Under the pieces are notes generated by a model that saw only the letters and a list, made by a program, of their open reading frames with translations, was not told where the DNA came from and made no database searches. From positions 1 through 22,569 of the IMG/VR virus record IMGVR_UViG_3300047375_000724: 22,569 nt of DNA; one strand, written 5' to 3'. The translations under genes were made by a program, and so were the position numbers. Positions 1-19,885 of this stretch are shown one piece after another (within the stretch, counting starts at the first letter, position 1; every line of letters starts with the position of its first letter). The DNA is from a virus.

Positions 1-3000
1 CATTATATTCTAGCGTGGATGCCTCAAGTTCTTTGACCTCATCACCAAATTCACCACTTGCCTCAAAGTCACTACGATATTCTTGAAGTCTATTATAAAG
101 TTTTAAAACATTCCTGCCATGCTCCATTTGCATCTCGGCAAGCTGAGCATTGGTAAGTATTTTTTCGGCTTTATCCGATCCCTTACTGCGATCCTTAACG
201 GGCAAACCTTTACCTCCGATTTTCTCTATCTTCCTTTCGAGCTGGGAGTCTGTAAGAAAAGTTTCTGCATCAGGTACTACTATATCAATAGGTTGAGTTG
301 GCTTTGAGAGTTCTATTGACCCCACCAATGACCAGCCATCTTCATCAAACATCCCCCTGTCACTTACCTTGCCACCCTTATTATTTTTCAGTGGGCGTAA
401 TTTAGATTTCTCACCTACCTCTTTCCCTTTAGCGTCAACGAGCTGGCTGTCGTATACCTTTACTATACTTTTTCTACCTTTCGTGGCGTTAACTATGGCG
501 GTCATGACACGGAATTGACCACGCTCATCACGTAACACTAACAACTTCTTAGTCGTAGATACTGAAGGCATTAAATTAAAAGTGATCTGATCATAACCAA
601 ATCTTCCGGTAACTAGATTCCCTCCCTCTCCTATATTAGCATCAAAAGAGTCTCCAAAGTCTACATCAATAACTCCCGCCCCACCAAGTTCATCAACCAA
701 CCAATTCTTTGTTCCTGACTCTATGAGGTTGGCGGGTGGTTCAAGTTCAAATGCAGTGTTACCTATGACTAATTCGTTCTCATCTTTGTCAATATATACG
801 CGATACACTCCATCGCCCTTGACCCCTAAATGCCCCTTTTTTCCGCGCTGGTGTAGATCCGTAAAAAATTCAAGCAATTCATCTTCCGAAGAAAAAGGCT
901 TCCTCTTAGATTGATTAAATGTTCCATCATTTTGCTCAGTAAATACATAGTATGAAGTGTCATCTGAGTAATCAAACTCTTTAAGATTATCCTCCGCGTT
1001 GTAAATATTTTCTCGCCAATTAGCACTCTTGGGATCAGGATCCGACTTAGCCTGTTGATTTGGAGTCTTCTGCAATCTCTGCAATCCCTCCTGTATTTGC
1101 TCTTCTGAGTATCCAAACTTTCTACCATTTGATACCCAAAGCTCAGGAATTACCTCGCCGTCTTGAAAATCAGAATCCGTAGGCTCACCCCATCTGACAA
1201 TGTACATCTCCTTACCTTTATGTACTCCGCTTGGTACTGGCTTAGATTCTGCCTGAAGGTCAGGAAAAGGAGTGTAGTCAAATTGACCCTCTGTGGAAGC
1301 TACTTGCTGTGCCTGTTCAAAAGTAGCTTTCTTATTTCGGTATTCTAATTCCTTGATTGTTTTATCGGCAGCCTCTTTGGTCATCCCTCTTGCGCCAACA
1401 TGACCCGATACACGCTTACCTCCAACAGGGATTGCTGACTCTGTGCCCGTTTGGCCACCTATATCCTCGTAGTCTATAGTTACGGCCTTATTTACTAATT
1501 CTTGGTCCTCAAGTAATTCAAAAACACCATTATCATCTGCGGGGCAGGAACTGCCTTCCCTTCTTGGATCATTTCTTGGGGGTGTCGGCTTTTTCTTTTT
1601 CTCAACAAGTGGTTTCCACTCAGAGAGTTCACCTCCGTAAATAGTCTTGCTGATTGTATCATCACCATCCTTGCGAGATATATCAATAGTACCCTCCTCA
1701 ATGTTTGCAGAGTCTATGGTAAATGTATGCGGGTTGTCCTTCTTATCCCTAAATATAGGATTCTCAATCTTTTTACCCTGCAACTTATCAGTTTCAAGAG
1801 TGCCAGCAATAGGATCCCCTTTGTCGTCCTGCTCCTGGTATACCTTTAGTTTCTTAGACCATCTGATTAATTTACTCCGATTAAGCCCTTTTTCATGGGC
1901 GATCTTTTCATCTGCGACCTTTTCGTCTAATTTGGTACGCATTGCATATCGGCCGCTACCATCTAATACGCCCAATGCCTCCATTACCTCTTTGATTTTT
2001 TGACCCTTTTGGGTCTCTAGTGTGGTTCCGGTAATCTCTTTAAATCTTTTTGCGTGGTTTGATTGATCTTCCGTGCGAAGACCTTGCTCCTCATTATCTA
2101 AGTATGCACGCTTAATGTATTCTTCCTCTATTCTCTTAAGCTCGGAATTAAATGCGTCAGCATCTTTAATAGATCCGAGTTCATAAGTTACACCACCATA
2201 CACAGATGTGGTCTGCTTGATTAATGGTTCTTGTTTGGTAGGTTGAGCTGGACTCTCAGGCTCTGAAATAATTTCCTCAATCTCGTCGACTACTGCATCC
2301 TCTTCCTCGAATGGGCGAGATAATAAATCTAATCCTACGGGCTCTGTAATCTTGTAAGGTTTACCCTGAGAATCTATCGCATTGTAACTTACGGATGCTT
2401 CCCTTCCGTCAATATCTTCTACCTGTACCTCCTGCGTGCCGATCTGTGCCTTGTCCCCAACTTTAAAACCTCTTGGATTTGCATCACCAGAAAAGTCTAG
2501 TGGTTGAAGTTCTGGTTGACTATCACGCTCAAAGGTCGGTTCTTCGCTAAGGTCTGTATCATCTGTGCGATCATTATTAATGTCTCTTTTACCAACACCT
2601 GAGAGATCAACTGAACCAATGGCTGCGAACTGAGTACCACCAATTGCACCTAGAACACCAGCATCAATCATGCGATTAAGCTCATCTGGCGTCCATGTTA
2701 GTTCTTCTCCCTTGCCGTACTTTTCGGCGGCCATAATGACAAATTCTTGCGCACCCTCAGTTGCCCCCTCCAAGAATACACCTTCCGGGAGTCTTTTAAT
2801 TAATCTCTTTAAGTAAGTCGTGGATTTTAACTTATCTACGCCAATCATCTGACTTAGCATTGTCCCCGCACTTACAAAGTCTAATGCTCCCGCAATGGTT
2901 CCGAAGCTTAACGCAAGACCACGAGCACTACTCTCGGAAATATAATCAGTATCATCAGGATCAAGTTTTGTGTATTGGTGTAACTCAGAGTAAATCTCAC

Positions 3001-3709
3001 CAATATTCATACCAAGAGAACTCACACCCACCCCACCCAATGCACCAATCTCGGTAAAAGTTCTTTTTATTGCTTGATCTGCAGATTCTCGTGCGGATTT
3101 TGTTCTTATTACTCCAGCTAACGTGTCCCTAATTCTACTTTTTACAACCGCCCTACCGGCAAGTCCACCAACTCCCATTCCCGCACCAAAGCTAACGCCT
3201 GCCTCAATCGCAGATGGCATCGCCTCACCAAATCCACCTGACAAAAATCGTAACACTTCCGAAGGCCGATCCCAGCGAACATCAGTAGCACGCTGTATGG
3301 ATGGTCCTCCCTCTGATGCGCGACTTTGCGCCTCAGCTGCCCTAGCCATTAGCGCTTCCTCTACTCCATCAAAACCAAGTCCGCCAGCTGCAAGTCCGCC
3401 AGCGCCATACATTGTGCTTTTTAGCCCTTCGTATCCCTTGGCGAATCCAGCGGGGATTTCCTTTAATCCGCCTAGGAATCCTTCTCGGCCAGGCTTTGGG
3501 GCATTTAATCTATCTAAGTAAAGATCAGTAGTGCGGTCACCATACTTCTCTGTAAATGTATCCCAATCACCACCCTCCATCTTATTGTTACCAACTAGAC
3601 CTCTCATTAGGTCAAAGTTAGATAATCCACTAGTGTCTAGTCCTGCGTTCTCAAGTTTTTGTCTATACTTTAAAACCTCAGGTGTAGTTGGATCGTTTTG
3701 GTATGCCAT
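1..3709 (-). CDS. Giant internal virion / ejection protein, N-terminal 1236 codons (runs off left edge)
   Basis: I followed one open frame from the ATG at 3709 (TAATG overlap) to base 1 with no stop: at least 1236 codons, incomplete. Residues 1-75 are charged. Residues 75-370 hold glycine/alanine-rich hydrophobic segments (about 100-112, 165-186, 222-236, 263-290, 349-366), such as GVSFGAGMGVGGLAGRAV, and the motif PEGVFLEGATEGAQEF (308-323), a type seen in giant phage 'polyvalent' or ejection proteins. A small beta segment, GFKVGDKAQIGTQEVQVEDI (414-433), resembles an SH3/KOW-like fold. The rest is charged, alternating helix and strand (for example VKVYDSQLVDAKGKEV). No lysozyme or transglycosylase motif was seen in this part. 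T7 gp16 (1318 residues) is the positional counterpart. Confidence 0.75.
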   Translation of the reverse strand, partial: MAYQNDPTTPEVLKYRQKLENAGLDTSGLSNFDLMRGLVGNNKMEGGDWDTFTEKYGDRTTDLYLDRLNAPKPGREGFLGGLKEIPAGFAKGYEGLKSTMYGAGGLAAGGLGFDGVEEALMARAAEAQSRASEGGPSIQRATDVRWDRPSEVLRFLSGGFGEAMPSAIEAGVSFGAGMGVGGLAGRAVVKSRIRDTLAGVIRTKSARESADQAIKRTFTEIGALGGVGVSSLGMNIGEIYSELHQYTKLDPDDTDYISESSARGLALSFGTIAGALDFVSAGTMLSQMIGVDKLKSTTYLKRLIKRLPEGVFLEGATEGAQEFVIMAAEKYGKGEELTWTPDELNRMIDAGVLGAIGGTQFAAIGSVDLSGVGKRDINNDRTDDTDLSEEPTFERDSQPELQPLDFSGDANPRGFKVGDKAQIGTQEVQVEDIDGREASVSYNAIDSQGKPYKITEPVGLDLLSRPFEEEDAVVDEIEEIISEPESPAQPTKQEPLIKQTTSVYGGVTYELGSIKDADAFNSELKRIEEEYIKRAYLDNEEQGLRTEDQSNHAKRFKEITGTTLETQKGQKIKEVMEALGVLDGSGRYAMRTKLDEKVADEKIAHEKGLNRSKLIRWSKKLKVYQEQDDKGDPIAGTLETDKLQGKKIENPIFRDKKDNPHTFTIDSANIEEGTIDISRKDGDDTISKTIYGGELSEWKPLVEKKKKPTPPRNDPRREGSSCPADDNGVFELLEDQELVNKAVTIDYEDIGGQTGTESAIPVGGKRVSGHVGARGMTKEAADKTIKELEYRNKKATFEQAQQVASTEGQFDYTPFPDLQAESKPVPSGVHKGKEMYIVRWGEPTDSDFQDGEVIPELWVSNGRKFGYSEEQIQEGLQRLQKTPNQQAKSDPDPKSANWRENIYNAEDNLKEFDYSDDTSYYVFTEQNDGTFNQSKRKPFSSEDELLEFFTDLHQRGKKGHLGVKGDGVYRVYIDKDENELVIGNTAFELEPPANLIESGTKNWLVDELGGAGVIDVDFGDSFDANIGEGGNLVTGRFGYDQITFNLMPSVSTTKKLLVLRDERGQFRVMTAIVNATKGRKSIVKVYDSQLVDAKGKEVGEKSKLRPLKNNKGGKVSDRGMFDEDGWSLVGSIELSKPTQPIDIVVPDAETFLTDSQLERKIEKIGGKGLPVKDRSKGSDKAEKILTNAQLAEMQMEHGRNVLKLYNRLQEYRSDFEASGEFGDEVKELEASTLEYN

Positions 3710-4392
3710 TAATATATTCCCGATTGAAGAAGTTCTGCAGTTTTGGGCATTGGTGCCTTTTGAAAATAACTAGGAGTCATCTTAGGAAACGGAATGCCAA
3801 AATTTGATCTTTCAGACTTAGGCTCAGGCATGGGAACGCCATTATCTGCACCTTCAATATAAAAGTCAGGATCAATAGGATCAGGCGTAAATGCACTCTT
3901 AATAGGATCAATCACCATATCATACATTGATCTATTAAAGTAGTAGGGGATTCTTCCCACATCAATGCCAGGAAATTCTAAGTACATACCGTGCTTACGG
4001 GAGTCATATCCATCACCAAACATACCTTGCTCAGGGAGGTTTTTATCTTTCTCATACCTACCTGTAAGTAGTGCTGCTGTAGGTTCCGCTATTGCAATTG
4101 CCGCAGGCTGTGCTCGTGCAACATTTTTTAAAGTGTTTGTAATGCTTGGTAATAATGCAGAAGGTGTAACAGTTGGCTTTACTGGGATATTTGGAGTTAT
4201 CTTATCTGCTATTATTTCAGCGGGAACATACGAGGCTGCTGGAATAGCTCCTACTTCAAGTTCCTCTTTAAATTTCTCTAACTTAGGGTTCTCGGGTGGC
4301 GTATAGGTTTCCCTCGCATCATCATATTCTTCTAGAGCTAAATTTAATTCAGCAAGCAGACTCTGCGTTGTACTATTTGAATCATTGCCCAT
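3709..4392 (-). CDS. Proline-rich protein of unknown function, before the giant gene
   Basis: A 227-residue protein. The N-terminus is acidic (LLAELNLALEEYDDARETY), the middle (65-110) is rich in proline, alanine and isoleucine, and the C-terminal half is proline- and aspartate-rich with aromatic residues (GMYLEFPGIDVGRIPYYFNR; PIDPDFYIEGADNGVPMPEP). No domain is recognised; much of it may be unstructured or wrap around a partner. It starts 11 bases inside the previous gene and ends in TAATG, which also starts the giant gene, so translational coupling to the giant protein is likely. A minor virion or ejection component is the best guess. Confidence 0.5.
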   Translation of the reverse strand: MGNDSNSTTQSLLAELNLALEEYDDARETYTPPENPKLEKFKEELEVGAIPAASYVPAEIIADKITPNIPVKPTVTPSALLPSITNTLKNVARAQPAAIAIAEPTAALLTGRYEKDKNLPEQGMFGDGYDSRKHGMYLEFPGIDVGRIPYYFNRSMYDMVIDPIKSAFTPDPIDPDFYIEGADNGVPMPEPKSERSNFGIPFPKMTPSYFQKAPMPKTAELLQSGIY

Positions 4393-5635
4393 TATTCAAT
4401 GAATTTCCAGCTTCACCCAGCAAGTACCCTCTTGGCTCTCCATGAAATGTTTTTATATCATCAATAAGTTTTTTCTGCTCAGGGACCAATGGATTAAGTA
4501 AAGTCTGGTCTGGGGTAGCAAATGGAGAGTTGTATCTTTCTGCCATTTTCCCTAACTGCATCGCATTCTTTCTTTCAGCGTCAACATCTATATTTTCATA
4601 TGACATTGCATTCATTCCGGCCTGCCCAAGATATCCAAGCGAGCCACCTATTACTCCATGGCCCAAAGTTCTCTTAACTCCCTTCCCTGTAAATAATTTC
4701 TTTGGCGATTTTAAAATTCCCTTCGGGTTGGTGCGCATTTGGTTCGCTATATCTTTTATGAATGAAACTTTAGACTTAAGTTGTGAATCCAAATGAGCAG
4801 ACATTTTCTTGCGGGCTCCTTCTATGTCACCGTTTTTTAATTCTTCTGCCACATCTGGTGCTTCCACTCCCATACCTGCAAGTGCATCTATGTCTGCCTG
4901 TATTAACGATTGGGGTGGCAACACATCCTGCACTAAAGGAGTTTGAGCACTTGTAACTCTTTGGTTTAGGTCGTTTAAATTTTTCAATTCTATGTCGTGC
5001 AGTTTTTGTGCATTTTCATAGCTCAGTTTTTTTGCTTCAACTTCTGTATTTACAAAATCTTGAGCAGATGAGTCAACCGGTCCAAGCTCTCCGTTTGCGA
5101 GAGCATTTCTGGTTGCCTCCGTATCCAGAAAATCCTTTTTCTTATGCTGTAAGTTTTGATCAGCAATTTGCAATTTAGCTTGTTGCTCTGGAAGTAATGC
5201 GTTTACTTCTTGTGTTACTTGTTGAAGATTTGAAGCATGCGCGTCAGCTTTTAATTTTTGTTCTGCGTCAAATTGTGCCTGGATTTTACCAGGTGCTTCA
5301 TTGAAAGTTTTCCTAGCATCCTCTGGGGATATTTTATTCTTTTTCTTTTTTCCATCTGGGCCATCTGGGAAGAGTTCTTGTACGAGGTCTCTTTCGGCAG
5401 TAAGCGTATTATAAAGTGGCGTAGCTGAGGCGACAATTCCTCCTGCAACTAATGGATTTGTTAAAAATTCACCTACATTTTGTAATCCAGAGACAAGCCC
5501 CGATCCGGGTGGTGGTGGTGGCGGAGATAATTGATTATTATAGAAGTATGGCGCAACATCTACAAGTTGACCGGGGTTACCTACCTCTATCTCAAGTAGC
5601 CTTAACTCTTCCGCTTCTTCTGGTGTTAGTGCCAT
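4382..5635 (-). CDS. Helical virion protein with proline run, probable ejection protein 3
   Basis: A 417-residue protein. A run of six prolines stands at residues 38-43, followed by a hydrophobic stretch at about 55-77 (FLTNPLVAGGIVASATPLY). A lysine cluster GKKKKNK (95-101) is encoded by an A-rich tract containing a canonical A-AAA-AAG slippery heptamer in frame. Residues 110-245 are coiled-coil-like. A basic, glycine-rich segment follows (KSPKKLFTGKGVKRTLGHGV, then IGGSLGYLGQAGMNAM) that could insert into a membrane. The family is not recognised. A membrane-interacting internal virion protein is a reasonable inference from hydrophobic and helical parts and from its neighbours. It overlaps the next gene by 11 bases. 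Confidence 0.55.
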   Translation of the reverse strand: MALTPEEAEELRLLEIEVGNPGQLVDVAPYFYNNQLSPPPPPPGSGLVSGLQNVGEFLTNPLVAGGIVASATPLYNTLTAERDLVQELFPDGPDGKKKKNKISPEDARKTFNEAPGKIQAQFDAEQKLKADAHASNLQQVTQEVNALLPEQQAKLQIADQNLQHKKKDFLDTEATRNALANGELGPVDSSAQDFVNTEVEAKKLSYENAQKLHDIELKNLNDLNQRVTSAQTPLVQDVLPPQSLIQADIDALAGMGVEAPDVAEELKNGDIEGARKKMSAHLDSQLKSKVSFIKDIANQMRTNPKGILKSPKKLFTGKGVKRTLGHGVIGGSLGYLGQAGMNAMSYENIDVDAERKNAMQLGKMAERYNSPFATPDQTLLNPLVPEQKKLIDDIKTFHGEPRGYLLGEAGNSLNNGQ

Positions 5636-6984
5636 TATTGAGTCCCTGCTTTTTGACGGAGTTGTATAAGGCGATTTCGTTTTGCTTGTAGAGTTGGATT
5701 CGCGCCTTTGCCTTGTGCTTGAGGCTGCCTAGGCTGTAGTGAATTAGGTGGTATATTTACCGAGGTACCACTCGCTGCCGAACTTCCCAAATATCTCATA
5801 AGTAGATTTGAAAACTCCCTATCCCTTGCGGTAACAACATCCGTAACGCTTGATGAGTAATGAGATTTTGCATTATCATCAAGTGATGCAAAAAGTGCAT
5901 TTACCCATTTTTGGTCTAACCTTCCGCTCTTTCCTGTAAATGGTGTCAATGTGTTACCTTGTGCATCCTTCAGATTAACACCTCCCTCAAGGTTGCCTTG
6001 CCTGGCATAATTTACTCCATGGCTTCTCACCCATTGATTTCTTAAGTTTTCGGTCATAGTTTTACTACCCGTACTTTGCCATTTATCGTACTCAGCGACA
6101 ACAGCTCCCGCACTGTCACTAAAGGCATCCCTCGCAGTTTCCTTAAGTTTAAATTCGCGCTTCTTGAGTTTATGCTCGGCATTAAACATTTTCTCTCTCC
6201 ATTCTAACTCAGCCTCGGCTATTTCAAAATCCATAGCCTTTCCAGCCATTGAATATGCACCACGCATTGCGATTCCTTGAAGTGATGCGCTACGATCGGC
6301 TGCCGCTTCACTCTCTCTTGATGTGCGGTCGGCATCGGATTGATCTTTTCTAGCCTTCAGCTCCTTGCGCGCTACCTTAAATCTTTGCGCAGCCTCCGCA
6401 GCCCTCTGTCCTAGCTCGGCGGTTGTTTGAGCTATAGCAATGCCACCTCTTATTGTTGCTAATTCTATAGCATTTTCACTATTTACACCTGCAATCTGAA
6501 GCGTGTTTGCCAACCTCTTATCTTCTATTGATAAAGAATGCAAACGATCCTTTTGACTTTCGCCTGATTGTTGGTTAAATAATGCTCCTTGTAATACCCT
6601 GGTATTAGCCAGTTGAGCCTCAAGCTGCTGTTCGTCGAGCTCCCTATTTAATTTATTTTGCTCAGCAGTAAATTCATTATTAGTAAGAGCCCGTGCATCA
6701 CTACTTTGCTGACGATATGCTTCCATATCCATAGCAGCGTCATTATTCATGCGTGCTCGTAGATCTAATCTGTTTGCATCTGCTGTCGCCCTAATATCTC
6801 TAGCTGGATCAATATTTACCATCTGGACATTTCTGCCTTGTGTTACAGTTGGAGTCATTGCATTTGCTTGCCGAGCGGCCATTAAGGCATCAACACCAAC
6901 CTTACCACCAGATTGTATTTGAGCATACGGGCGGGCCATACCGGCCTGCTTACCCTGCATATATGGATTTAGTGCGTTAGACAT
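5635..6984 (-). CDS. Coiled-coil virion protein, probable internal/ejection protein 2
   Basis: A 449-residue protein. Residues 60-300 are long charged helices with heptad-like spacing and many glutamine, alanine and arginine residues (for example ELKARKDQSDADRTSRESEA and EWREKMFNAEHKLKKREFKL). Residues 395-449 are proline/glutamine-rich and end basic. There is no signal peptide, membrane segment or known enzyme motif. It follows AAGGAAAG, shares eight bases with the upstream gene and one base (TAATG) with the downstream gene, so it is translated as part of the same run. An internal-core or ejection role is inferred from position and composition only. Confidence 0.55.
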   Translation of the reverse strand: MSNALNPYMQGKQAGMARPYAQIQSGGKVGVDALMAARQANAMTPTVTQGRNVQMVNIDPARDIRATADANRLDLRARMNNDAAMDMEAYRQQSSDARALTNNEFTAEQNKLNRELDEQQLEAQLANTRVLQGALFNQQSGESQKDRLHSLSIEDKRLANTLQIAGVNSENAIELATIRGGIAIAQTTAELGQRAAEAAQRFKVARKELKARKDQSDADRTSRESEAAADRSASLQGIAMRGAYSMAGKAMDFEIAEAELEWREKMFNAEHKLKKREFKLKETARDAFSDSAGAVVAEYDKWQSTGSKTMTENLRNQWVRSHGVNYARQGNLEGGVNLKDAQGNTLTPFTGKSGRLDQKWVNALFASLDDNAKSHYSSSVTDVVTARDREFSNLLMRYLGSSAASGTSVNIPPNSLQPRQPQAQGKGANPTLQAKRNRLIQLRQKAGTQ

Positions 6985-8443
6985 TAAAGATTTTCTTTCC
7001 TTGATTAATAATATCAGGCGCCGCCTTTAATGCCTTAACCCAATCTATTCCGCCACTCTCGGGGATAGGGGCAGGGTTAAATGGAGTCTCAGAAAAGTTT
7101 GTTTGACCAGGTGCGAGTGCGCCCGTTGTTGTGAATGGTGACACCTCATTCTTAAGAGGATCAGTTGGTGCAAGTGCGGCCTCTCCAAATAGAGAAGGTA
7201 GCAATGCCTTATTCATGGCTATTCCCGTAATTGCATCAACATTACCTAACTGACGATTCATAATTTCGTCATACATATTAGACTCGTTCATGATCTTGCT
7301 CTCATCAATTCCAAGATTAGTTGCCTGTGCATCTAGTTCTGGAGTTCCCATCTTGAGCATAACCTCATCGCGATATACATCTGCCATGGCAGGATTGATC
7401 TCACCAATTTTTTCAAAGCGACCAGATTCAATCTCGCCCCTTCTTTGAGATTCATTAATTAGGGCATCAGCAAGTAGGTCAGATTGTCTCATTCCACGCT
7501 CGGCATTCATCATCATACTTGCCATGCGTCCACCAGTTCCAGTTGATCCACCCATGCTATTTAATCCACGCATACCAGACGCTGCATCCATTGAGGCATT
7601 CCTTCGGCCAACTGCGGCTTTTGCTTGCTCCCCTGCTAGTGCTGCATCAGATGCATTTCGTAAGGCATCAAATTCTTTATTTGCATAATCAACTTCTGTA
7701 TTAACAGAGCCCGCCAATGAATCACCATAGTTTTCATTTAACTCTCTTGTACGCGCTGCAGTTGCGGTATTAATGCCCTTTAATTCATCAAGTACATTAT
7801 TGATATCGCTATTATACCCCTCCATTCTAGCAGTCATGCCATTCGGGTCATATACATCCGATAATGCACTTACCGCAGAATCAAGATTAGCATTCGACTG
7901 GTCAAAGGTATCTTGAAATCCTTCCATTCTGGAACGAGCATCGCCAATAAAATCTGGAAGTGCCTCGGCGGTACTTTCCATGTTATCAAGGATTAAATCT
8001 CCCGTTTTCTCTGCATAATCAGGGAATGGGTCAATTGCTTCTCCTCCTTGGGAAAATCCTTCGACATAATTTTCGTCACCGGGTGACGCCATAAACTGCT
8101 CGAGCTTTAAGTCGTCAGTAAAATCAAATAGTTCGCCTTTTCCGCGACTAACCATATCGGTTGCCCATGCTTGGCGATTAGCGCGATTTTCTTTATCCAA
8201 TGCTTTTTCTTCAGCCTCAGTAATTGCTGCTTGTTGAGCCTCTTGTGCTTTTCTAGCTGCTTTCTTTTTTCCGAATGGATCCGACAATGGTTTCCAATAC
8301 GATGGGATTCCTGCTACCCACTCCTGCCCAGCACCACCCCTAGATTTAAGTAAGGCCTCTTCCTCTGGATTAAGGTATGCCAATCTTTCCCCTGGTGGGG
8401 CTAAGGCATTTAATGCCTCTGATGCCTCCTGTATATTACGCAT
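6977..8443 (-). CDS. Helical virion protein, probable internal/ejection protein 1
   Basis: A 488-residue, alanine-, aspartate- and methionine-rich, mostly helical protein with no membrane segment. A lysine/alanine-rich helix lies at about 58-90 (KKKAARKAQEAQQAAITEAE), long helices at about 145-275, and a glycine/serine/methionine-rich patch at about 278-313 (GLNSMGGSTGTGGRMASMMM). The C-terminus is basic (QGKKIFNV). I do not recognise the family. Size, composition and location (after tail genes, before the giant gene) fit T7 gp14/gp15-type internal core proteins that are ejected with the genome. TGGAGATG ahead of the ATG is the ribosome site. It overlaps the next gene by eight bases. Confidence 0.6.
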   Translation of the reverse strand: MRNIQEASEALNALAPPGERLAYLNPEEEALLKSRGGAGQEWVAGIPSYWKPLSDPFGKKKAARKAQEAQQAAITEAEEKALDKENRANRQAWATDMVSRGKGELFDFTDDLKLEQFMASPGDENYVEGFSQGGEAIDPFPDYAEKTGDLILDNMESTAEALPDFIGDARSRMEGFQDTFDQSNANLDSAVSALSDVYDPNGMTARMEGYNSDINNVLDELKGINTATAARTRELNENYGDSLAGSVNTEVDYANKEFDALRNASDAALAGEQAKAAVGRRNASMDAASGMRGLNSMGGSTGTGGRMASMMMNAERGMRQSDLLADALINESQRRGEIESGRFEKIGEINPAMADVYRDEVMLKMGTPELDAQATNLGIDESKIMNESNMYDEIMNRQLGNVDAITGIAMNKALLPSLFGEAALAPTDPLKNEVSPFTTTGALAPGQTNFSETPFNPAPIPESGGIDWVKALKAAPDIINQGKKIFNV

Positions 8444-8449
8444 AATTAT

Positions 8450-8941
8450 TCATCTCCAATTAACAGATAGGGAAACGCGAGGTGTATCGTTTCCGTGGGC
8501 AGTAACAAAATGTTTTAAACGAGATGGAAATATTATGTATTTACCTTTCTCAGGAGTAATTGCTGCCTGCATTCCAAGTTCTTCAACTATAAAACAAATT
8601 TTTCCCGAACGCTCTGGGGTCTGCAAGTAACATGCCGCACTCCAATTAGATGGAAGATGCCCATGCGTATTTGTACTCATGTTTTTATTATGTACATGCA
8701 CCCAATGGGATTCGTACTTTACAGACTCTCCACAATCTTTAAGTGCTTGAGTCATTTCTTCTATTAGACCTACAACTTCTTGCTTGGATACCTTGCGATC
8801 TTTGGGATCCGCAGAATCCAGACCATCATTTGTATTCTCAGCTAAAGTGGGTGCATTAATTACGCGGTCAATAAAACCTTGATCCGGCATATTTAAAACC
8901 TTTCCTGTTATAATAGGCACAGTAAACAGGCTTTGCATCAT
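8450..8941 (-). CDS. 2-oxoglutarate/Fe(II)-dependent oxygenase-like protein
   Basis: A 163-residue protein with the layout of the putative 2OG-Fe(II) oxygenase family (PF13759 type). H93 and H95 (NTHGHLPSNWSAACYLQTPE) sit where that family has its first metal ligands. FPSRLKH at 138-144 supplies the distal histidine H144, and R155 (TPRVSLSVNW) is the expected 2-oxoglutarate-binding arginine. The C-terminus ends one residue after the conserved NW. Iron- and oxygen-dependent hydroxylation is known for the superfamily; the substrate is unknown. Such genes occur in phages of marine bacteria. Its place between the fibre chaperone and the internal virion genes could mean that it modifies a virion or host protein, which is inference. 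The start ATGATG overlaps the upstream stop; the second ATG is an alternative. No Shine-Dalgarno. Confidence 0.7.
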   Translation of the reverse strand: MMQSLFTVPIITGKVLNMPDQGFIDRVINAPTLAENTNDGLDSADPKDRKVSKQEVVGLIEEMTQALKDCGESVKYESHWVHVHNKNMSTNTHGHLPSNWSAACYLQTPERSGKICFIVEELGMQAAITPEKGKYIIFPSRLKHFVTAHGNDTPRVSLSVNWR

Positions 8942-14506: not shown

Positions 14507-14820
14507 ACAGAATATAAATTATTTTGAACAGACTGCAAGTTAGTTGATACATCATTGAGTAATTGTATTGTCTTCTCATCCAAACCTGCTAGCGCCTGAT
14601 CGGTCTGTTGCTTGTTTAATGAAATGCTCTCATTGAGCTGATCTTTGGTATATGTGGAGATTTGATCATCTAGTCTAGCTAGGTTCAATTTCACATCGTC
14701 CCACCATTCATTAAATCTTTTATCAAACTTTTTTTCATCTTCATTCTTCTTAGGGAGGGCTTCATTATCCGGGAATGAAGGGTCAGAAGTTCTTTCAAAA
14801 GTTGTAACGCTAGCCCTCAT
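14503..14820 (-). CDS. Short coiled-coil protein after the nozzle gene
   Basis: A 105-residue, highly charged helical protein. Residues 25-70 (KNEDEKKFDKRFNEWWDDVK, then LARLDDQISTYTKDQLNES) and 71-103 (LNKQQTDQALAGLDEKTIQL, NDVSTNLQSVQNNL) show heptad-like spacing of leucine and isoleucine, so an oligomeric coiled coil is likely. It begins at the ATGA overlap with the nozzle-like gene, with AGGACAGGG ahead of the ATG. Its position between nozzle and fibre cassette suggests a fibre anchor or tail accessory protein. I do not recognise the family, and the role is inference. Confidence 0.55.
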   Translation of the reverse strand: MRASVTTFERTSDPSFPDNEALPKKNEDEKKFDKRFNEWWDDVKLNLARLDDQISTYTKDQLNESISLNKQQTDQALAGLDEKTIQLLNDVSTNLQSVQNNLYSV

Positions 14821-17480
14821 CCCTGTCCTACTGCTTGTGTTGCTGACCTTGTATCAATACCAGAGGCCTCAAATGTACGCCCTACAACTTTCACTGGATT
14901 ATCAACCACGACAGGTTTATTTTGCTCATAATAGTAAGCCTCTACCTGTATCCCATCTGGGTTTGTAGTCGTTTTCTGCTCAATATACCCATCTAAAACA
15001 TATAGTTCGCTATTTTCTAAATATACAGGGAGGACTGTAATCTCATCTCTTATGTAAGGAGCCCGTAAATATAAGGGTATCATATTTTCATCCCTCATAT
15101 TATTGAGTGTTACATAATCTATTTGCGTACCATCAATAGTAGACATTGTCTCTACAGTCTCAGTTCCTTGTGGTGCGGAGGTTGTGCTAATTTTTACCCG
15201 AACGGGGGTTACGCCATATTTACTGGATAACTCTAGCACATATGACCTCACCTCTTTATCTGAAAATGAATCCCCAAAGTCTATCAAACCACTTCTTATC
15301 CTTGATTCATAACCATAACCTATTCTGCTGTACCTCCTATAAGGCTCGGTCTCTCCGTATAATGGCGGGCCATAACCATACCTAACTAATACGCCACCAT
15401 ATTGAGGGTCTACCCTCCATTGGGTTCCTACATATAGATCACTTCTATTAGTAGCTTGATGAACGCCCATTAGGAACCAGGTCTGCTCGGGTCCAAGGCG
15501 GTTAGCTTTCGGTTTCCTTATTGTGCAACATGTCGTAAAACTTGAATCTATCTGCGAAAGTGTTTCATTAATGTAGTCGTATGCTATCACGCCCCAGTCA
15601 AGTATAGGCTGCGAACCTTCAGCTAATGGTTGATTAAATTCATCAACAAATTGACCCTGTGAGTTTTTCTTATACCCAAGGGGGCAATTTATAAATATCT
15701 CACGAGTAACAGGATTATCTATCGTGTAAATAAATTCTGATAACTCAGGGGGAACAATATTCCAAAATGGGGGACCAAGCTCAAATGTTGGGACAGGTTG
15801 AGGCTCAGTGGCTGATCTATTTATAGTATAAACACCAGTATTCCCCATAAATAAATGCTTATTACCGGATACTTTTATTACTGTGTGCCTGAAGTCTGCC
15901 GTTCGGCCACCCCTATACCTAGGATCTACGGCAAATGGCTTAAGGGTACTATTGGCTGCCGTGAGAAAGAAGAATCCTGAATCTCTGTATACTACCAATT
16001 TATCTGCCAACTCCACCATCTTGACAATTCTTGACCCGTCTTGACTAAACTCTTGAAAAGCTGCTGGGCGATGTAATTGCTCAGCATACGGGCGTATTAC
16101 GCAACTATAGGATCCGGCTTGTAATGGTTGGCCTGTTGCTGGGTTTTTTAATACTATATTTGCTTGAGATTTATTAATTAACTTAATTGAGCCAACACCA
16201 ATTGCTGAGAAAAAGATACCACTTGTATCTATGTAACTTATTTGTTCAGTCAATATTTCAGAATCAGTAAATGATAATTCATCCCTAGTCGGGAATTTAA
16301 CTTTTAATCTTCCTATCGCGGCCGTTCTATCGCTTGCTGAGAAATCTTCATTATCAAACTTTACATCTGCTATTCCGAGTGCAGGGTCATCTATAAAAAC
16401 TCCGATATGATCACGGCCTCCATGTAATCCAAACTCAAATTCCTGATACATGCTAGCTGGGTCATTTAACTGAAACTTCTGAGTTGTGCTAAATGTATAC
16501 TCTCCGCCCGCACTTACAGTTAATGTACCAGGCGCACCACCAGACTCTGCTACTATTAATCCACTTGGAGTCTCAACTCCTGCATTAAAAAGTTTGGGCT
16601 CTCCTTCGGCCGAATAAACTATTCTATATTGGAACCTTTGGGTTTGCACTGCTCCTTGTAACGGATGATTTACTCCGAATGTCGCATAAGCGTCAGAAGC
16701 ATTCTCAAACCAATGCTCAAAGCCTGAAGATATGACCGTTAAGTCTGCGCAGAATAACCTGTCTTGAAATATTCCTATTGTCCCCACGGACATCACGCCA
16801 TTTTCTCTTAATCCATAAAGCGGATAGGCTTTATCGTACTCATTTCCGCCTGCATATATAATAGGTAGATCTACCCCATTATTGATAATTACATGGTTTT
16901 TAACCTCTGCAAATTCCCACCTATATGCACCTCCTTCATATGGATCTTTGTAAGTACCATCAGACTCCTTTGCGTCCATGTGGTTTTCAAATGTATAAAT
17001 CTCTACCCAATTAAAATCCTCACCATCATTATTAAAGTAATCAACAGATGGAAGTGATGGTTCTGGTGCATCAACACCATCGGAAGTCGCATACTCCTCT
17101 ATGGGGTCGGGATTTAATAAATCTTGGCCGTAATTAATAGCGAATCTTCTATCTCCCGATTGTAGCTTAAGTACTTTATTTCCGGCACAAGCAATCAAAG
17201 TGGGATTACCATCAATATCTGTAAACTGGTATAATCCCCTAATTGGGAATTGGCTATTTATTGCATCATCATTACCGGATGGATTAAATAGATCCCAGCC
17301 CTCTCTCCTTAGTTCCCCATCTACCTCTCTGCGGAAATTTAATTTCTCGGTGTAATTAGCAGACGACGCAAGGAAGTTTGTATTGTTAGCTAGTGGGATA
17401 TCATCGGATGTGGATCCAATTAACTGCCCGCCCTGCGAGGGGTGGATTGTTATATGCTTATATCTCTTTCCTTTTGCCAT
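14817..17480 (-). CDS. Tail nozzle-like protein (T7 gp12-like), 887 residues
   Basis: A large beta-rich protein with no membrane segments. It carries repeated blade-like segments: RGLYQFTDIDGNPTLIA near 81-97, IFQDRLFCADL near 237-247, KLVVYRDSGFFFLT near 494-507, KHLFMGNTGVYTIN near 541-554, and GLIDFGDSFSDKEVRSYVLEL near 731-751. A 'print the value, then check origin and minimum' pattern of short strands with G-VY-x-[IF] turns is typical of the beta-propeller tail nozzles of podoviruses (T7 gp12, P22 gp10 types). Length is close to T7 gp12 (794 residues) and the gene sits where a nozzle gene belongs, after the adaptor and before internal virion genes. It is the best anchor for calling this a short-tailed phage. 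The exact family could not be confirmed without a profile search. TAATG links it to the fibre gene and ATGA to the next gene. Confidence 0.6.
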   Translation of the reverse strand: MAKGKRYKHITIHPSQGGQLIGSTSDDIPLANNTNFLASSANYTEKLNFRREVDGELRREGWDLFNPSGNDDAINSQFPIRGLYQFTDIDGNPTLIACAGNKVLKLQSGDRRFAINYGQDLLNPDPIEEYATSDGVDAPEPSLPSVDYFNNDGEDFNWVEIYTFENHMDAKESDGTYKDPYEGGAYRWEFAEVKNHVIINNGVDLPIIYAGGNEYDKAYPLYGLRENGVMSVGTIGIFQDRLFCADLTVISSGFEHWFENASDAYATFGVNHPLQGAVQTQRFQYRIVYSAEGEPKLFNAGVETPSGLIVAESGGAPGTLTVSAGGEYTFSTTQKFQLNDPASMYQEFEFGLHGGRDHIGVFIDDPALGIADVKFDNEDFSASDRTAAIGRLKVKFPTRDELSFTDSEILTEQISYIDTSGIFFSAIGVGSIKLINKSQANIVLKNPATGQPLQAGSYSCVIRPYAEQLHRPAAFQEFSQDGSRIVKMVELADKLVVYRDSGFFFLTAANSTLKPFAVDPRYRGGRTADFRHTVIKVSGNKHLFMGNTGVYTINRSATEPQPVPTFELGPPFWNIVPPELSEFIYTIDNPVTREIFINCPLGYKKNSQGQFVDEFNQPLAEGSQPILDWGVIAYDYINETLSQIDSSFTTCCTIRKPKANRLGPEQTWFLMGVHQATNRSDLYVGTQWRVDPQYGGVLVRYGYGPPLYGETEPYRRYSRIGYGYESRIRSGLIDFGDSFSDKEVRSYVLELSSKYGVTPVRVKISTTSAPQGTETVETMSTIDGTQIDYVTLNNMRDENMIPLYLRAPYIRDEITVLPVYLENSELYVLDGYIEQKTTTNPDGIQVEAYYYEQNKPVVVDNPVKVVGRTFEASGIDTRSATQAVGQG

Positions 17481-19885
17481 TACTGCGAATATGCATCTTC
17501 AACAAATGCCAAGGTTCTTACATCTCCACCAAGATTAACCTTCCATCTATCAGTGCCCTCATCCCAATAGAGCTTAGCATTAGTGGAATTTCCACGCTCT
17601 ACCTCAATACCTGAATCAAGATTTGCTGATGGAGTTCCGGTTTGGTTTTTATTGAGAATAACCATATTATCTTCAATTAATAGATTAGTCGTATCAATTG
17701 TTGTGGTTGTTCCATTAACTGTAAGATTTCCCGAAAGCGTTAAATCTTCACCTTGTATATTTCCAGTTGTTTTGACTAGGCCTGCCCCAGCATCCAGAGA
17801 TGTAACAGTTGCCGCGCCTGTTGAAAGTGTGCCTGTAGTAGAGATTTCACCTGCCCCAGCACTTAACGATGTTACAGTTGCTCCGCCAGTTGAAAGTGTG
17901 CCCGTAGTAGATATGCTACCACTGCCTGCACTAAGTGATGTTACAGTAGCGCCTCCGGTGGATAATGTACCTGTCGTAGAAATTGCCCCTGATCCTGCAC
18001 TAAGAGATGTTACAGTGGTGGCTCCGCCCAGTATTTGACCAGTGGTTTGAATTGTACCGCTACCAGAATCTAATGAATCAACTGTTGCAGTGGTGGCTCG
18101 CAATGTACTTAAAATAGAGTGGGCAGATACATTAAGCGTATTACTTATTGAGACTGCACCCTGCGTGCTCATTCCACTGGCAAGTGAAACCTGACCATTT
18201 ACATTAAGAGTATTGCCACCAAGGGATACATGAGTGCTTGAGATATTTGTAGTGTTTCCAGCTACATTAAATGTAGACCCGCCCAAAGAGACTGCACCAG
18301 TCACATTTAGGGTATTATCAATATTAGTAGCGCCACCTATGGAGACATTGGCAGTACTTATATTCGTAGTATTAGTGGTCTTATCTACCTGAAATAGATT
18401 TGATACATTTAATGAATTACCAAGGGAAACATCACCTGTAACATTTAAAATATTACTTATATTGGTAGCACCACCAATAGAAACATTGGTGGTGTTAATA
18501 TTTGTAGTATTTGTAGTATTATCTACCTTGAATAAGTTTACTCCACCAGGCGTGATAACTTCAAACTTTGGAGTTTCTACCTCAAATGTACTACCCGGAC
18601 TGCCGTCATTAAATTTCTTACTTGCAAGAATTTGCCTCCAATCAGTAGGTCCAAACTTAAAAAATAACCCCAAATCGTCATACGCAATATCACCTACTGC
18701 ACCCGCACCATCAGTTGGTGAAGTTGGCTTAAAGGAGTATCTCAGGGCATCAATATAAAATTGTATGCGAGTGTCGGTCTCAGCCTTGGAGAATACATCA
18801 AAGTAAGTTAAGTTTATATTATGAGGATTCGACGCATTTAAGTGGGAATCCAATAATGACTGAAAGTTAATATCTGGCACATTACTTAAGCCAACCTGTG
18901 CTTTTGTTACGGAATGCGGATTATCCGTTCTACCCGTATGCGCAGTTGATCCAGCACTTGCTGCATTTAATTCTGCTTTTGTTGCTAAGAGTTGTGCTTC
19001 AGATGATTGAAAAATCTCGGAAACATTGAAGTTTTCGACCTTATCTAAACCTAGTTGACCTTTTGTTACAGCGTGCGGGTTATCTGTCCTTGTATTGTGA
19101 TCCGAAAGTTTGAGGTCAACGGCTCCTGTTGTGTATTTATCAAGGTCTGTGATGTCGCTCTCAATATGAGTGTGAGGCTTAGGTACGACATTATTCAGCA
19201 ATGAGTCAGTTTGTGACTTGTTGTAATAAGAGGTTCCTATATCACTTATATTCGCAACTACATGAGTATGCCCAGTATCCGCTTTGGCATCCAAATCAGA
19301 GGTTGTAGGTAAGCCGGAAATTGTTGTATTAATTGTACCTACTTGAGACTGAAGTGAAGCAACCTCAGCGCTTGAGTCTGTGCCTAAATCAAGTGCCGCG
19401 ATATTTGCATTGATACTCGACTCAATAGAGTTCACATATGCAGTCGTTGCCTTGGCGTCTATAGCGGCCTGCAGTCCCGTAATTTGCGAAATTGTGTGAG
19501 AATGAACAACCTCGGCGTAGCTCCGCCCCTCTAATGTTGTAACCCTAGTACTTAATGCACTGATTTGGCCCGAGTGAGGCAGATTGTTGATTGTTGTATT
19601 TAGACCAGATACCTGGGAATCTACTTCCGTCTTAGTGTAGTAATTCGCAGCAAAGCTATTATCCGCACCCTCAAGTGTTACAACTCTGCTCGTTAGGGAA
19701 GTAAGTGAATCATTTAAGGTCTTTCCTGCGGATGCGGTAAGAGCAAGGACCGAAGAACTAGTACTGAGACTATCCGTAAGATCTTCGCTTAAAACTAATA
19801 CGCTATCTATTAGATCAGCAAAGTTTGCTTCTGTTGGGGTGGCACCTGTTAGAAAATATGATTTTAATGTAGTTCTTCCGCTCAT
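17480..19885 (-). CDS. Long modular tail fibre, 801 residues
   Basis: An 801-residue fibre built of distinct modules. Residues 1-40 hold the motif LKSYFLTGATPT, then NFADLIDS, a known opening of phage fibre proteins. Residues 40-260 are helical coiled-coil stretches broken by three HxH motifs (H128/H130, H206/H208, H238/H240), the type that binds iron in the T4 gp37 needle. Residues 267-355 carry three [DS]NPH repeats, two of them with VTK-x-Q-[LV]-GL, a classic fibre repeat. Residues 451-542 hold two 46-residue repeats, and residues 601-715 hold five 23-residue repeats. The C-terminal module (719-801, GNLTVNGTTTT onward) recurs in the 284-residue gene. Its location between the adaptor-like and nozzle-like genes is unusual for a T7-type order. 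It overlaps the next gene by one base (TAATG). Confidence 0.85.
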   Translation of the reverse strand: MSGRTTLKSYFLTGATPTEANFADLIDSVLVLSEDLTDSLSTSSSVLALTASAGKTLNDSLTSLTSRVVTLEGADNSFAANYYTKTEVDSQVSGLNTTINNLPHSGQISALSTRVTTLEGRSYAEVVHSHTISQITGLQAAIDAKATTAYVNSIESSINANIAALDLGTDSSAEVASLQSQVGTINTTISGLPTTSDLDAKADTGHTHVVANISDIGTSYYNKSQTDSLLNNVVPKPHTHIESDITDLDKYTTGAVDLKLSDHNTRTDNPHAVTKGQLGLDKVENFNVSEIFQSSEAQLLATKAELNAASAGSTAHTGRTDNPHSVTKAQVGLSNVPDINFQSLLDSHLNASNPHNINLTYFDVFSKAETDTRIQFYIDALRYSFKPTSPTDGAGAVGDIAYDDLGLFFKFGPTDWRQILASKKFNDGSPGSTFEVETPKFEVITPGGVNLFKVDNTTNTTNINTTNVSIGGATNISNILNVTGDVSLGNSLNVSNLFQVDKTTNTTNISTANVSIGGATNIDNTLNVTGAVSLGGSTFNVAGNTTNISSTHVSLGGNTLNVNGQVSLASGMSTQGAVSISNTLNVSAHSILSTLRATTATVDSLDSGSGTIQTTGQILGGATTVTSLSAGSGAISTTGTLSTGGATVTSLSAGSGSISTTGTLSTGGATVTSLSAGAGEISTTGTLSTGAATVTSLDAGAGLVKTTGNIQGEDLTLSGNLTVNGTTTTIDTTNLLIEDNMVILNKNQTGTPSANLDSGIEVERGNSTNAKLYWDEGTDRWKVNLGGDVRTLAFVEDAYSQ
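17741..18085 (-). repeat. Five tandem 69-base units in the fibre gene
   Basis: Five in-frame 23-codon units with exact 69-base spacing (matching anchor triplets at 17799, 17868, 17937, 18006 and 18075). The consensus protein unit is TVTSLSAGSGSISTTGTLSTGGA (first 20 residues: TVTSLSAGSGSISTTGTLST). The inner three units are nearly identical in protein; the outer two have diverged. The spacing and conservation fit expansion by recombination or slippage in a fibre shaft. Confidence 0.85.
18260..18535 (-). repeat. Two tandem 138-base units in the fibre gene
   Basis: Two consecutive in-frame units of 46 codons (residues 451-496 and 497-542 of the 801-residue fibre). Both begin LF-x-VD-x-TTNTTN and continue NVSIGGATNI and LNVTG-x-VSLG. 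A shorter, decayed third unit follows (TTNISSTHVSLGG). The strands are typical of a triple beta-helix shaft, so unit number probably sets shaft length. Confidence 0.75.

Follow-up and report, generated by a model that had tools for sequence, protein, structure and literature searches.

We propose that the gene cut off at the left end of the window (the whole 22,569-base stretch of DNA analysed here) encodes a giant polyvalent ejection protein from a lineage of uncultured podoviruses, with a layout resembling that of the virion RNA polymerase (vRNAP) of phage N4 but no polymerase. We put the probability of this reading at about 0.7. Both the place of the gene in its operon and the layout of the protein match those of N4 gp50. 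It is by analogy that we infer packaging, injection and enzymatic activities, along with every other role assigned to the protein. Full-length relatives carry an enzyme-like region whose content differs between lineages and has been exchanged between them.

A giant coding frame truncated by the contig end

The giant ORF comprises 1,236 uninterrupted codons on the reverse strand, read from an ATG at position 3709 and still open at the contig end. Its start, TAATG, overlaps the stop of the adjoining upstream gene. It is a real coding frame, and its length far exceeds chance: the best of 100 shuffled windows reached 251 codons without a stop, and a codon-usage model built from the remaining genes of the window scored the frame positive in 12 of 12 blocks of 100 codons and above all five other frames. 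An earlier note had described this unclosed frame, and small shadow ORFs across the same region, from the letters alone; both are present. Since the window is the complete IMG/VR record, the gene is truncated by the contig and its 3′ end lies off it. No contig overlapping the left end was found, either with a degenerate pattern taken from the contig end or in a close-relative scan with the giant itself as query.

The window protein had no PHROG match, and a match to DUF6302 fell below the cut-off of that family. Its closest full-length ortholog (L165, on contig C6 of the metagenome-assembled genome CALIKS01) is 72% identical over 1,218 aligned residues, with dN of 0.21 and a near-saturated dS of about 2.8. 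The alignment reaches the last codons of the window, and the frame of the ortholog continues past the cut to a full length of 4,214 residues. By this comparison, the window probably holds the front 29% of a protein of ~4,200 residues. The operons are also parallel, with genes of 229, 405 and 476 aa upstream of the ortholog in the places of the 227, 417 and 449 aa genes of the window. In all, four mid-size late genes precede the giant gene (Table 1).

Table 1. Features of the window, with residue numbers referring to the giant protein
Feature	Position	Strand	Basis or remark
N-terminal 1,236 codons of giant ORF	2..3709	-	ORF, codon statistics, 72%-identical 4,214-aa ortholog
Conserved small domain, middle region, residues 1052-1159	233..556	-	Profile from four relatives
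Possible SH3-like segment FKVGDKAQIG..., residues ~414-447	2369..2470	-	Alignable in relatives
Conserved N-terminal domain, residues 1-427	2429..3709	-	Small-residue-rich, moderately hydrophobic segments; part probably homologous to tf_51 (phrog_6958)
Hydrophobic small-residue segment MIDAGVLGAIGGTQFAAIG, residues 347-365	2615..2671	-	
EGATEGAQE motif, residues 314-322	2744..2770	-	
Hydrophobic small-residue segment GLALSFGTIAGALDFVSAG, residues 264-282	2864..2920	-	
227-aa late gene, overlaps giant's start	3709..4392	-	Similar-sized gene at same place in L165
417-aa gene, putative internal/ejection protein	4382..5635	-	Position; no family match
449-aa gene, putative internal/ejection protein	5635..6984	-	Position; no family match
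488-aa gene, putative internal/ejection protein	6977..8443	-	Position; no reliable family match
2OG-Fe(II) oxygenase gene	8450-8941	-	Lies between the fibre genes and those for internal proteins; PF13759 E 8e-14; phrog_81
Tail fibre gene	17480-19885	-	Internal repeats of type SLSAGSGSISTTGTLSTGGATVT

The oxygenase gene listed in Table 1 occupies a site that may be another variable locus, as other small genes are found there in the related genome G007.

Full-length relatives and their common plan

Relatives were traced from the window's tail protein (14817-17480), which led to three contigs; the terminases of two of these led to 80 loci of the lineage. A relative of the N-terminal part is encoded in 11 of 29 contigs, in open frames of up to 5,700 codons. 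The giants of these relatives range from 3,751 to 5,699 residues, on contigs of up to about 80 kb. Full-length examples are those of G007 (4,042 aa), G018 (4,138), G014 (3,751), G013 (3,771), G020 (5,699) and G034 (3,943), and a further giant, in G010, spans a 141-base terminal repeat and is about 3,960 aa long with the overlap counted once. Their sequences point to a common plan, in which an N-terminal domain is followed by a variable middle, a zincin-like domain, a slot of changing content and a C-terminal domain. In the middle region, the small domain at residues 1052-1159 is recognised in the window protein by the profile of four relatives at 34.5 bits, with reversed decoys at 0.7 or below.

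Two members depart from the usual form. In G020 (L110 1883-18979), ~3,000 residues of the giant are middle sequence, with one sub-threshold LysM match (E 0.03). In G004 (L113 7805-19430), the giant consists of two ORFs that overlap in different frames and measure 794 and 3,092 aa, which could be a true gene split, a frameshift or an assembly error. Behind the giant of G007 lie genes (L129 6271-7179 and 4523-5578) for a calcineurin-like phosphoesterase (phrog_7339, E 4e-11), an HNH-like small ORF and a tyrosine integrase (E 6.5e-23), which suggests a temperate member.

Among 50,697 phage records searched with tblastn, the window fragment retrieved a weak match to tf_51 alone (E 0.2), and the C-terminal and N-terminal-to-zincin parts of the relatives retrieved nothing. 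The ortholog resides in a 1.6 Mb genome labelled as an uncultured archaeon, and we reject that label as proof of an archaeal host. This genome contains three different giants, on contigs C21 (L117/L167), C6 (L165) and C36 (L166), together with three terminases of the lineage, and has a single rpS7 gene. The C-terminal domain occurs in 1 of 300 genomes searched from its phylum and 1 of 12 from its family. With three giants beside one rpS7, and other genomes of the family and phylum free of the domain, co-binned viral contigs are probably a better account than a host link.

An N-terminal domain related to a virion structural protein

The N-terminal domain appears to be a distant homologue of a LUZ24-like virion structural protein, through a link that is weak in score. 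A profile of nine N-terminal domains found tf_51 as the sole significant ORF in the 30.5-kb stretch of phage tf examined, at 26.7 bits; the next ORF scored 3.2 and reversed tf_51 less than zero, and hhalign gave 89%. Window residues 216-367 align with residues 142-291 of tf_51, and an EGATE-QE motif is common to both. The EGATEGAQE motif had been picked out in the earlier note; most relatives have the form EGxTExxQE, and tf_51 has EGATEAAQE. The tf_51 protein is assigned to phrog_6958, virion structural protein, a family that the G007 giant matches independently (E 2.5e-4). LUZ24 particles contain nine proteins by mass spectrometry, seven of them with homologues in tf; the tf_51 homologue may or may not be one of these (PMC3517423).

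The proteins of this type (tf_51, LUZ24 gp50 and PaP3 p19) share with the giants ~150 residues, including the motif, with no homology detected beyond them. Unlike the giants, they are ~1,020-1,050 aa long. The gene for tf_51 is the penultimate one of its structural operon, a place equivalent to that of the giant gene.

Two further features had been proposed in the earlier note. Glycine-zipper-like segments are borne out as a mild enrichment of small-residue zipper spacing, of which the window protein has 21 instances where shuffled versions average 11.4, and only 20 of 2,000 shuffles reach 21; for GxxxG alone, 111 of 2,000 shuffles reach the observed value. A possible SH3-like segment is alignable in relatives; the resemblance to SH3 is suggestive, with a weak PDB profile match to bL19 (E 0.9).

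A zincin-like domain followed by an exchangeable slot

Because the window stops before any enzyme domain, its zincins, slot content and C-terminal domain are taken from the ortholog, which carries two HExxH motifs and the common C-terminal domain. The zincin-like domain has an HExxH motif, present in every full-length giant, and a downstream DEF Glu. A profile of this zincin-like domain aligned over 139 columns with the metallopeptidase (MPTase) domain of N4 vRNAP, HExxH and downstream Glu in register, at P 3.2e-4; the comparison gave a probability of 39% with seven N4-like sequences, and P 0.008 with a single N4 sequence. The two domains may thus be weakly related.

The slot, which the C-terminal domain follows, contains either a Kinase-PolyVal domain or a second zincin motif. 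Kinase-PolyVal (PF18762, cut-off 27) matched the giants of G004 (66.6 bits), G014 (38.0) and G010 (37.1), and G013 has a divergent copy that retains the motifs. No match was obtained in 14 control genomes or in the window's ortholog. The lysine and catalytic-loop motifs of kinases are present in the Kinase-PolyVal domains. The second zincin motif (HE-QHA-D, downstream GE-T) is found in G007, G018, G034, contig C21 and the window's ortholog; the pair of HExxH motifs in G020, like that in contig C36, is of other kinds. Confidence in the AlphaFold models was low (mean pLDDT 50 and 54), which leaves the folds without independent confirmation. Foldseek matches of the zincin-kinase model were to protein kinases, the best at E 0.009, and to zincin metalloproteinases, at E 0.09; given so poor a model, these are supportive at most.

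The zincin-slot region has undergone natural in-frame recombination between lineages, as read from the pattern of sequence identity. Compared in blocks of 100 residues, the giants of G007 and contig C21 mostly share 94-100% identity at a synonymous divergence of 0.1-0.4, whereas at residues 1696-2450 identity falls to 31-78% and dS rises to 1-2. Over residues 2093-2440, C21 is instead 92-95% identical to G034, more than in most other blocks of that pair. A shorter dip in identity between G007 and C21 (72-89%) lies at G007 residues 1296-1496, with no donor identified.

The C-terminal domain

The C-terminal domain spans ~1,550 residues and contains a hydrophobic segment that lies some 300 residues from its end. 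It had no PDB match, with nothing below E 0.39 in a Foldseek search of its model. PDB profile matches to a designed helical repeat and to TRIM25 were discarded as helical-repeat noise. Fragment 4 of UniProt A0A516MLU2 (BFVD) resembles the model of the domain over ~1,257 columns, at 29% identity and E 1.9e-39.

Relationship to polyvalent proteins and to N4 gp50

Phage-type polyvalent proteins combine many domains in a chain encoded beside late genes, commonly with a zincin as hub; their zincins are proposed to act on the host or to process the polyprotein itself, and their kinases to modify host proteins (Iyer et al. 2017, PMC5512222), a model that we adopt. The giants resemble them in several respects. 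The relatives are multi-domain chains, as the window protein would also be; the HExxH and downstream Glu of the zincin lie beyond the window's cut; three relatives carry a curated polyvalent enzyme family in PF18762; and the gene is encoded with late virion genes. Unlike those proteins, the giants have N- and C-terminal domains without a curated family, and lengths of 3,750-5,700 aa. Kinase-bearing members were previously known mostly from Verrucomicrobia-Chlamydia and Bacteroidetes phages and prophages (PMC5512222).

N4 gp50 is packaged and ejected through the tail, and it includes an HExxH subdomain along with a large helical domain whose fold is unknown (PMC12633501; PMC5512222). As in that protein (Schitoviridae; phrog_2206), the giant is the product of a giant late gene adjoining ejection genes, and its domains run in the order N-terminal domain, payload, HExxH domain, large helical C-terminal domain. 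The N- and C-terminal domains of the giants are not detectably homologous to those of N4 gp50, no RNA polymerase was detected in the giants, and they have an exchangeable kinase or zincin slot. The C-terminal domain showed no homology to the C-terminal encapsidation domain of N4 (hhalign probability 0.2%).

The giant could instead be an internal core protein like T7 gp16, serving mainly to form an ejection channel and open the cell wall, with its enzyme-like domains as remnants. We regard this as rather unlikely. The podovirus gene order agrees with it, the gene following smaller internal proteins in a late operon as T7 gp16 does, and so do the helical C-terminal model and the hydrophobic segments towards both ends. 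However, no lytic transglycosylase of the T7 gp16 type was matched by Pfam in the window or the relatives scanned, no peptidoglycan domain exceeded its cut-off in those giants, and key zincin and kinase residues are kept.

Slightly less probable is an intracellular host-takeover protein, made late or early and never packaged, whose gene adjoins the structural genes by chance. Enzyme domains could work without packaging. Nevertheless, the TAATG overlap with the last small late gene, the kinship between the N-terminal domain and a virion structural protein of the LUZ24 type, and an operon place equivalent to those of tf_51 and N4 gp50 argue against it.

That the giant is itself a virion RNA polymerase of the N4 type, its polymerase domain lying in an unseen or divergent middle, is very unlikely. 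Its size and position are similar, as are the HExxH-then-large-C-terminal order and the zincin profile, but the full-length giants scanned had no match to the vRNAP family, against 3,964 bits for the N4 gp50 positive control. Profiles of their middle, N-terminal and C-terminal domains scored no better against N4 than the reversed control, and no T7-type motif B is common to them. A tape-measure-like tail protein, to which the long helical C-terminal model and its weak matches with tape measures in Foldseek (best E 7e-4) might point, is scarcely credible: the gene order fits short-tailed phages, the matches resemble generic helices, and exchangeable modules such as the kinase and zincin would be superfluous in a tape measure.

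A polyvalent ejection protein remains our preferred reading. The earlier note had supposed the largest virion protein, ejected into the host; size as seen in relatives supports the first part, and operon position, LUZ24-type homology and the zincin in common with N4 give good support to a virion protein that is ejected, for which injection would follow by analogy. Its suggestion of enzyme domains further left holds in the relatives for a protease-like (zincin) and a polyvalent (Kinase-PolyVal) domain; a transglycosylase and an RNA polymerase were not detected.

A proposed route into the host and its implications

On the polyvalent ejection model, the giant would be made late and packed in the capsid together with the smaller products of the genes immediately before its own, then threaded through the short tail, either along with the DNA or before it. 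The N-terminal domain and the hydrophobic segment near the C-terminus may aid assembly and the meeting with the cell envelope. Inside the cell, the zincin-like metallopeptidase domain could act on its own chain or on host proteins, and the slot module, a kinase or a second zincin (the latter in the window's closest full-length ortholog), would act on host proteins. The C-terminal domain would most likely be needed for packaging and assembly, a role that the C-terminal region of N4 vRNAP has without being homologous to it.

We speculate, tentatively and with the balance of probability against it, that the giants represent an injected chassis with a cassette slot, in which fixed end domains provide packaging and entry, the host-takeover enzyme is interchangeable between lineages, and the C-terminal domain is a new delivery fold. 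If this were true, the giants would parallel, in phages, the way polymorphic toxins exchange cassettes. The in-frame exchange seen in the enzyme region makes the old suggestion that domains are swapped as cassettes in polyvalent proteins directly testable. The uncultured podovirus lineage gains a candidate delivery protein of 3,750-5,700 residues, with a build like that of the N4 polymerase and other payloads. This raises the question of how a chain of 400-600 kDa would pass through a short tail.
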